Of a stretch of DNA of 64,000 nucleotides, positions 20,733 through 21,545 are shown one piece after another. Position 1 is the stretch's first letter. Each line of letters begins with the position of its first letter. Made by a program: the position numbers and the translations under genes. The notes under the pieces were generated by a model, which was not told the origin of the DNA, searched no databases, and was given only the letters and a program-made list of their open reading frames with translations. The stretch spans positions 41,307 to 105,306 of the forward strand of contig SVKL01000005.1 in NCBI GenBank assembly GCA_015068495.1, given 5' to 3'. Origin of the DNA: Oscillospiraceae bacterium (lineage in GTDB: Bacteria > Bacillota > Clostridia > Oscillospirales > Oscillospiraceae).

Positions 20733-21323
20733 TTAGTGACACCGTTTGCACGGTGTAAAGCCACGCGATTCTGCTTCGGATTGTGTTACTTTTTCAGGAT
20801 CGTTCATATTGCTACAACCTGCACTGGTATGATATTTGGTGCCACCATTTGTGGGAATCCAGACCATAGTTTCATGGTTGTAGTCGGGATCTTCCTTTCC
20901 ACATGTTGTGCAGTTTCCGTTTGAAAAATTGTGTCCGGCAGTCAAGCCACTTGTTGTACCGCATACAGTACATGTTTTGGGATCAGAACAAGTTGCCTCT
21001 TTCCAGTTATGTCCATTGGCGCTGCCTTCTGTTGCACCGCAAGAACAAATTTTGGGTGAAGTGCAGGTAGCCGCACTAAAGCTATGCGTGTGTGGAGGCT
21101 TTGTGGTGGATGCGGTAGTAGGTGCAGTAGTAGGTGCGGTAGTAGGTTTCTCAGTGGAAGCTTGCGTGTCCTCAGTGTTGCTATCAGTAAGTTTTTCTGT
21201 GTTGTTGGTGGTGATTTGACTAGGGGTGGTGCTGGGGTTGGTGTTTTGTATGCTGCCCCCGTCGCAAGCACACAGGCTCAGCAGTAGAACAATCACAAGT
21301 AGCAAGGATAATACTTTTTTCAT
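20733..21323 (-). CDS. Cys/His-repeat lipoprotein with an Ada-type metal-binding end
   Basis: The product of about 196 residues begins with a lipoprotein signal (MKKVLSLLLVIVLLLSLCAC), followed by a long Thr/Ser/Pro linker. Three modules of the form H-x6-C-x5-C-xx-C come next (HNWKEATCSDPKTCTVCG is the clearest). The C-terminus reads YHTSAGC, about 20 residues, then EAESRGFTPCKRC, which resembles Ada-like metal-binding domains found on Firmicute surface proteins. The track start at 21386 is too far upstream; ATG 21323 has an AAGGG site 7 bp away. Its Cys modules resemble those of the surface protein at 3.4-5.1 kb. The gene follows a structured leader with its own terminator. Function unknown; metal binding is inferred. 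Confidence 0.8.
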   Translation of the reverse strand: MKKVLSLLLVIVLLLSLCACDGGSIQNTNPSTTPSQITTNNTEKLTDSNTEDTQASTEKPTTAPTTAPTTASTTKPPHTHSFSAATCTSPKICSCGATEGSANGHNWKEATCSDPKTCTVCGTTSGLTAGHNFSNGNCTTCGKEDPDYNHETMVWIPTNGGTKYHTSAGCSNMNDPEKVTQSEAESRGFTPCKRCH

Positions 21324-21344
21324 AGTCATTCCCTTTCTCTCTAA

Positions 21345-21372
21345 ATAAAAAAGCGCGCAGCCGAGGCTACGC
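21345..21372 (-). terminator. leader terminator upstream of the Cys-repeat lipoprotein
   Basis: On the minus strand GCGTAGCC pairs with GGCTGCGC (one G-T pair), followed by GCTTTTTT. It lies between the predicted promoter and the ribosome site, so read-through is needed for expression. Confidence 0.75.
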
Positions 21373-21398
21373 ACTGAAAAACACATAACCCCGATTGC

Positions 21399-21511
21399 TG
21401 CGACACAACTTCTGACAAACTACAAGAGAACGTCAAAACTGGAGAATGTGTTTTTGCCGAAACAAAAAAACGTTTCCCCTGTAGTTTGTCCAAATATAAA
21501 GTTGTGTCGCA
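21399..21511 (-). promoter_or_regulatory. structured 5' leader element (riboswitch-like or long inverted repeat)
   Basis: TGCGACACAACTT and AAGTTGTGTCGCA pair perfectly at the ends, and GACAAACTACA pairs with TGTAGTTTGTC inside. An asymmetric bulge separates the two helices and a head of about 55 nt closes the structure. It begins at the predicted transcript start and is followed by an intrinsic terminator before the gene. I do not recognise a known riboswitch. A MITE-like inverted repeat is the alternative. Confidence 0.6.
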
Positions 21512-21516
21512 GGAAT

Positions 21517-21545
21517 ACTTTAGCACGAGCTAGTAAACAATGCAA
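21517..21545 (-). promoter_or_regulatory. promoter of the Cys-repeat lipoprotein
   Basis: On the minus strand TTGCAT and TAAAGT are 17 bp apart. The predicted start falls at about 21510, the first base pair of the leader structure. Confidence 0.55.

Follow-up and report, generated by a model that had tools for sequence, protein, structure and literature searches.

A candidate new class of riboswitch-like leader RNA, with predicted competing terminator and antiterminator, in gut and rumen Clostridia

Organization of the locus

The window analysed here, a stretch of 64,000 nucleotides from an Oscillospiraceae bacterium, carries on its minus strand a promoter, a 113-nt hairpin, a terminator and then a lipoprotein gene whose ATG lies at 21323 (Table 1). 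Large surface proteins throughout the genus contain the CxxC and GHxW repeats of this lipoprotein as well, with up to 8 matches per genome.

A preliminary description of this DNA had proposed that a promoter at 21517-21545 starts a transcript exactly where a long hairpin with an asymmetric bulge begins, followed by an intrinsic terminator. All of these features hold. The predicted +1, at about 21511/21512, coincides with the first base of the hairpin, and in 117 homologues the spacing between the hairpin and a promoter of the form TTG...TGnTATAAT is the same. This fixed distance from P1, together with the extended -10 (TGnTATAAT), indicates that the RNA begins at P1. The hairpin has a minimum free energy of -51.8 kcal/mol (z = -8.1), which none of 200 shuffled sequences equalled. 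Two details had to be corrected. The helices, first given as 13 and 11 bp, are present but longer (about 14 bp for P1, about 17 bp or more for P2), and an apical P3 comes in addition. In the same way, a Shine-Dalgarno-like sequence does exist, but it sits at 21337-21330, whereas 21323, the position first given for it, is where the start codon begins.

It should be noted that an ATG within the linker (21386, minus strand) is in frame with the lipoprotein and opens an ORF of 217 aa (MCFSVRSLGCALFYLERKGMTMKK...). Because of this codon, gene callers may wrongly extend the lipoprotein through the terminator into the leader.

Table 1. Features of the leader and of the gene that follows it (all on the minus strand; positions are those of the window)
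Feature	Position	Remarks
Sigma-A type promoter	21517..21545	-35 TTGCAT 21545-21540, 17-nt spacer, -10 TAAAGT 21522-21517
Hairpin	21399..21511	113 nt
P1 5' strand TGCGACACAACTTT	21498..21511	begins at about +1; from folding
Asymmetric bulge between P1 and P2	21491..21497	AUAUUUG in the window; AAUA nearly invariant in homologues
P2 5' arm	21474..21490	pairing constant, sequence variable among copies (arm-swap test)
P3 5' strand, U-rich	21463..21472	competes with the linker for the core
Core GGCAAAAACACAT	21446..21458	partner is the P3 5' strand or the linker (pseudoknot)
Core, short form AAAAACACAU		within the sensor core of the window element
P2 3' arm	21414..21430	from folding and arm-swap test
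P1 3' strand AAGTTGTGTCGCA	21399..21411	from folding and covariation
Linker CGGGGTTATGTG	21382..21393	5' strand of the 12-bp antiterminator
Antiterminator	21393-21382 with 21373-21362	
Pseudoknot strand ATGTGTTTTT	21377..21386	fully complementary to core AAAAACACAT over 10 bp; shares bases with the antiterminator strand
Pseudoknot	21386-21377 with 21455-21446	perfect 10 bp
Terminator 5' arm and loop (GTGCGTAGC CTCG)	21362..21374	arm 21374-21366; 21373-21362 is the antiterminator 3' strand
Terminator 3' arm GCTGCGCGC and U-tract	21347..21361	arm 21361-21353; U-tract from 21352
Shine-Dalgarno-like GAAAGGGA	21330..21337	of the downstream gene
Regulated gene, 196-aa lipoprotein (MKKVLSLLLVIVLLLSLCAC...)	20733..21323	CxxC / GHxW repeats; no Pfam family

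Distribution of the family

In its own genome, the element is single-copy by DNA similarity, and a covariance model adds one further, divergent copy. Comparison by blastn with 99 relatives revealed copies that have their ends, linker and terminator in common. A search of genome contigs with a pattern of the 3' part (TGTGTCGCAGCAANNRGRGYTNTG) gave at least 120 matching stretches, and at least 120 loci retain the structure. Among the matches listed, all those with readable titles are assemblies of gut or rumen Clostridia (Oscillospiraceae, Ruminococcus, Ruminiclostridium and others), and only one of those listed is a viral contig.

With the covariance model R1 and a presence cut-off of E <= 1e-10, the RNA was found in 61 of the 247 genomes of the order (~25%) and in 58 of the 293 of the class (~20%); in a sample of 300 genomes of the phylum, no match was obtained except in the window's own genome. 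Some carriers have a single copy, others up to ten or more, sometimes in tandem with units 200-300 bp apart, and presence within the genus is patchy. The relatives that retain both neighbours of the window element are too few for synteny comparison to be of use.

The second member of the own genome (L258:827-1047, minus strand, i.e., contig C9:42326-42545, with a P1 starting with TGCCAAACAAATCT...) precedes a membrane protein gene. Together with L168, L170, L171 and L172, it forms a subtype with an extra conserved hairpin, GGGGTAGTATACCC.

Structure and covariation of the sensor

A riboswitch or an attenuator would be expected to combine a conserved structured sensor backed by covariation, a terminator and an antiterminator that exclude each other and are about equally stable, and a position as 5' leader of a regulated gene. 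The first of these is found here. The compensatory base changes in homologous leaders, for which the preliminary description proposed to look, are massive. Double-sided changes occur at 12 of the 13 pairs of P1 in homologues (for example, GCGAC/GUCGC is replaced by GCCAC/GUGGC or GCCAA/UUGGC). The arms of P2 are unrelated in sequence between copies; in 115 copies, the two arms of the same copy pair with -24.5 kcal/mol versus -9.7 kcal/mol when arms are swapped. In the alignment A2 (85 sequences), 94.3% of the cells of P1, P2, the pseudoknot and the terminator are paired, versus 32-61% in slid controls. When all hits of the covariance model are considered, including distant members, 30 of 36 pairs display double-sided changes.

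Some limits of these data should be kept in mind. The simulated tree-based null for covariation was so broad that its E-values were of no use, and the arm-swap, shuffle and slid-column controls took its place; its top-ranked pairs are nevertheless mostly real helix pairs, pseudoknot included. As A2 was preselected on the 3' consensus, the invariance that it displays in the P1 3' strand and in the linker is partly due to selection, a bias that A4 and A5 lift only partly since the model used to find them was itself derived from A2. Relatedness is not eliminated by shuffling, and the sequences come mostly from metagenome-assembled genomes. For P1, P2 and the pseudoknot, as far as comparison of sequences can tell, relatedness is immaterial, the arm-swap and slid-column results being too strong.

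Two competing pairings of the linker

The strands of the pseudoknot and of the antiterminator, the most informative parts of the element, had been missed in the preliminary description. The sensor core AAAAAYGCAY has its complement in the linker strand RUGCRUUUUU, over 9 bp that covary and are 99.6% paired in 85 sequences (permutation p <= 0.0002). This pairing is kept in divergent members, with a mean run of 9.3 out of 10 versus 6.3 for shuffled sequences. At the centre of P3 and the pseudoknot, three strands consist almost purely of U, A and U, respectively, while the flanking pairs covary. By inference, this composition suggests a U.A-U triplex pseudoknot. Such pseudoknots occur in the SAM-II riboswitch and in telomerase RNA. 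At most 11 nt connect P1 with the pseudoknot strand, and the RNA must fold back past P1 and P2, so that a sharp turn is expected at the AAUA bulge.

In the second pairing, the linker (CGGRGYURUGCRU) binds the terminator over its whole 5' arm and loop, and an antiterminator of 12.2 bp on average results. Its calculated energy is -13.9 kcal/mol versus -14.3 kcal/mol for the terminator and -6.1 kcal/mol for dinucleotide-shuffled linkers (n = 119). Terminator and antiterminator are thus isoenergetic in the 119 copies (ddG of 0.4 +/- 2.5 kcal/mol), and the antiterminator is 96.8% paired versus 14-70% in slid controls. GGGG:CCUC in the window replaces the GGAG:CUUC of most copies, and both sides change together in distant members (UUGAG:CUUCAA, UCGAG:CUUGA and CAAGGC:GGCCUUG). 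Part of this conservation comes from that of the terminator arm, and few antiterminator pairs change on both sides in A2. Since the antiterminator strand overlaps the pseudoknot strand, the two pairings are mutually exclusive. As for a terminator and an antiterminator that exclude each other and have similar stability, this expectation is met by computation.

Two other roles were considered for this region and rejected. A leader peptide encoded by the linker (GGAGYT-NTG, where N is never C in 119 copies) does not fit, as the frame is interrupted by indels and the NTG is missing in distant members. Pairing of the P1 3' strand with the terminator 3' arm would not serve as antiterminator, because the resulting hairpin would itself end at the U-tract and should therefore terminate.

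Downstream genes

The position expected of the 5' leader of a regulated gene is also found. An ORF start preceded by a Shine-Dalgarno sequence lies 10-40 nt past the U-tract in 89 of the 120 listed copies (74%), versus 6.8% at random positions. No start codon is present in this interval for the other 31 listed copies, some of which belong to tandem arrays (L236, L237, L121). According to simple heuristics, 67% of the genes that start 10-40 nt past the U-tract encode a signal- or anchor-like N-terminus and 23% a lipobox, versus 16% and 3% of the other genes of the same loci. The regulon consists mainly of cell-surface and secreted proteins.

Among 85 downstream proteins, Pfam identified BspA-type LRR_5 repeats (17 of 85), AMP-binding domains (4), HTH (3) and M23 peptidases (2), as well as zinc ribbons, SLH, CAP, subtilase and other domains. 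Neither Pfam nor PADLOC detected a defence or toxin pattern in these 85 proteins.

The Cys/His modules of the window lipoprotein had led to the idea of a metal or redox ligand, which finds no support since the downstream genes are diverse and mostly code for secreted or membrane proteins. Moreover, the best homologue of this lipoprotein (62% identity, genome G012) has no leader, whereas other Cys/His-repeat proteins are encoded downstream of predicted leaders (L190; genomes G040, G041 and G033). The leader is therefore tied neither to one gene nor to metal biology.

Relation with known RNAs

As stated in the preliminary description, no known class is recognized. Searches of Rfam 15 returned only chance matches below the gathering score for the window and none over the element for other members. 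No earlier description was found in the open literature searched, but large catalogues of candidates (e.g., PMC8040213) could hold fragments of it.

The organization is reminiscent of the preQ1, SAM-II and fluoride (crcB) riboswitches, i.e., a 5' leader with a sensor followed by a terminator, an exclusive terminator/antiterminator pair, and a strand common to the aptamer pseudoknot and to the expression platform. SAM-II also resembles the present family in having a U-rich loop next to an A-U helix. However, the family differs from them by its sequence and fold (without any Rfam match), its fixed promoter with +1 at P1, and a regulon made of surface proteins rather than of a pathway.

The c-di-GMP riboswitches (GEMM-I and c-di-GMP-II) occur in several copies per genome and control surface and secreted proteins in Clostridia, as may the present family, which nevertheless does not match these Rfam families. 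GGDEF genes are present in 29 of 61 RNA-positive genomes versus 107 of 186 RNA-negative ones (p = 0.18), and no GGDEF match (E <= 1e-10) was found either in the own genome or in G309, which has five copies of the RNA. This distribution, without association with carriers, disfavours c-di-GMP as a ligand.

Type III toxin-antitoxin RNAs (ToxI) likewise associate a promoter, a structured pseudoknotted RNA, a terminator and a gene, and form tandem units. Here, however, the downstream genes are not ToxN-like (no ToxN/AbiF-type toxin was found by Pfam and PADLOC among the 85 downstream proteins) and the units are not short repeats within one transcript. Gut-1 RNA (RF01706) is, like this family, an orphan structured RNA of gut bacteria, but it is a separate RNA of about 77 nt. 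One copy adjoins a member of the family in L256, without overlap (1905-1976 on the minus strand and 1794-1880 on the plus strand).

In sum, the RNA is predicted to behave like a riboswitch and every known family membership that was tested failed; in the absence of ligand-binding data, it is a strong candidate for a new class, pending a ligand.

Proposed mechanism and alternative explanations

The order of sensor, terminator and gene had been read as that of a riboswitch or attenuator, a reading supported by the massive compensatory changes and by the conserved, energetically balanced terminator/antiterminator pair. Widespread folded leaders, in which a stop hairpin competes with a go hairpin before genes mostly encoding secreted or membrane proteins, look like a new class of gene switch. 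Although no expression, probing or ligand data are available, the element is most probably an attenuator that controls transcription of the downstream gene in cis and belongs to a new, riboswitch-like class.

The RNA started at the promoter would fold into the sensor (P1, the AAUA bulge, the variable P2, then P3 and the core), followed by the linker, which would take part in either of two overlapping pairings, with the sensor core (pseudoknot) or with the terminator 5' arm (antiterminator). When the pseudoknot forms, in a ligand-bound or equivalent state, the linker would be held, no antiterminator could form and the terminator would turn the gene off. Conversely, when P3 takes the core, the free linker would occupy the terminator 5' arm and the polymerase would read into the gene. 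The competing structures are supported by comparative data, whereas which state is on and which is off, what triggers the change and whether there is a ligand are matters of inference. As the energy gap between terminator and antiterminator is near zero, a small binding energy could decide.

A more specific scheme can be put forward only tentatively, although it is quite conceivable. The family would be a new class of riboswitch, present in several copies per genome and in two structural subtypes, which senses a general signal of gut Clostridia (other than c-di-GMP) through a U.A-U triplex pseudoknot. As an exchangeable unit of promoter, sensor and terminator, it would switch genes for lipoproteins, leucine-rich-repeat surface proteins and further envelope components.

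Instead of a small molecule, the sensor of the cis attenuator could recognize a macromolecule, for instance an RNA-binding protein that acts as antiterminator or repressor. This remains possible but somewhat doubtful. The regulon does not correspond to one metabolic pathway, and the few conserved unpaired residues (AAUA, CUC) would suit a protein site; however, no partner gene is consistently adjacent, no linked regulator is obvious, the RNA is patchy across the genomes of one order, and the conserved pseudoknot with its triplex-like core resembles small-molecule aptamers.

Besides being an attenuator, the module could mark a recombination or cassette boundary, so that it would be exchanged with the Shine-Dalgarno sequence and signal peptide as a 5' unit. 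Thus, L013 and L015, from two genomes, have a common upstream sequence and almost identical RNAs followed by different genes, as if the 5' unit had been rejoined, and the lipoprotein homologue of G012 lacks the leader. Nevertheless, some gene families repeatedly have a leader in different genomes (AMP-binding and MKCENYxCIYE proteins) and no recombination site is defined, which leaves this proposal rather unlikely, though not negligible.

That the module is a free-standing small RNA gene, the downstream genes being incidental, is improbable. It does have its own promoter and terminator, some tandem units lack intervening genes, and the terminated product would be a stable RNA of about 165 nt; but the closeness to start codons and the strong signal/anchor-like bias would then remain unexplained, and a constitutive terminator needs no conserved isoenergetic antiterminator.

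Finally, insertion of a MITE- or REP-like inverted repeat (or of non-autonomous transposon ends) in the leader, the main alternative of the preliminary description, is scarcely credible and, in its simple form, refuted. In its favour, the element consists of a 113-bp inverted repeat with a patchy distribution, precedes unrelated genes and is missing before the G012 homologue. Against it, no scattered copies with target duplications were seen (none flanks the window copy), plasmids gave no match and phages only weak unrelated ones, the element is single-copy by similarity, the arms are unrelated between copies yet internally paired, the copies lie just before start codons with their own promoters at a fixed upstream distance, and conservation runs past the repeat into linker and terminator.

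If the attenuator reading is correct, a common regulatory RNA without Rfam entry would govern which surface proteins uncultured gut and rumen bacteria produce. Its anatomy is defined down to the exact bases of three competing pairings, and its ligand, once found, could reveal the signal for surface remodelling in these bacteria.

Arrays of 2-4 promoter-RNA-terminator units in tandem, without intervening genes, are seen in L236 (865-1833), L237, L121, L126 and L238. In the L236 array, only the last, gene-proximal unit is adjacent to an ORF (PIN/NYN-like by eye), and this unit has the strongest antiterminator.
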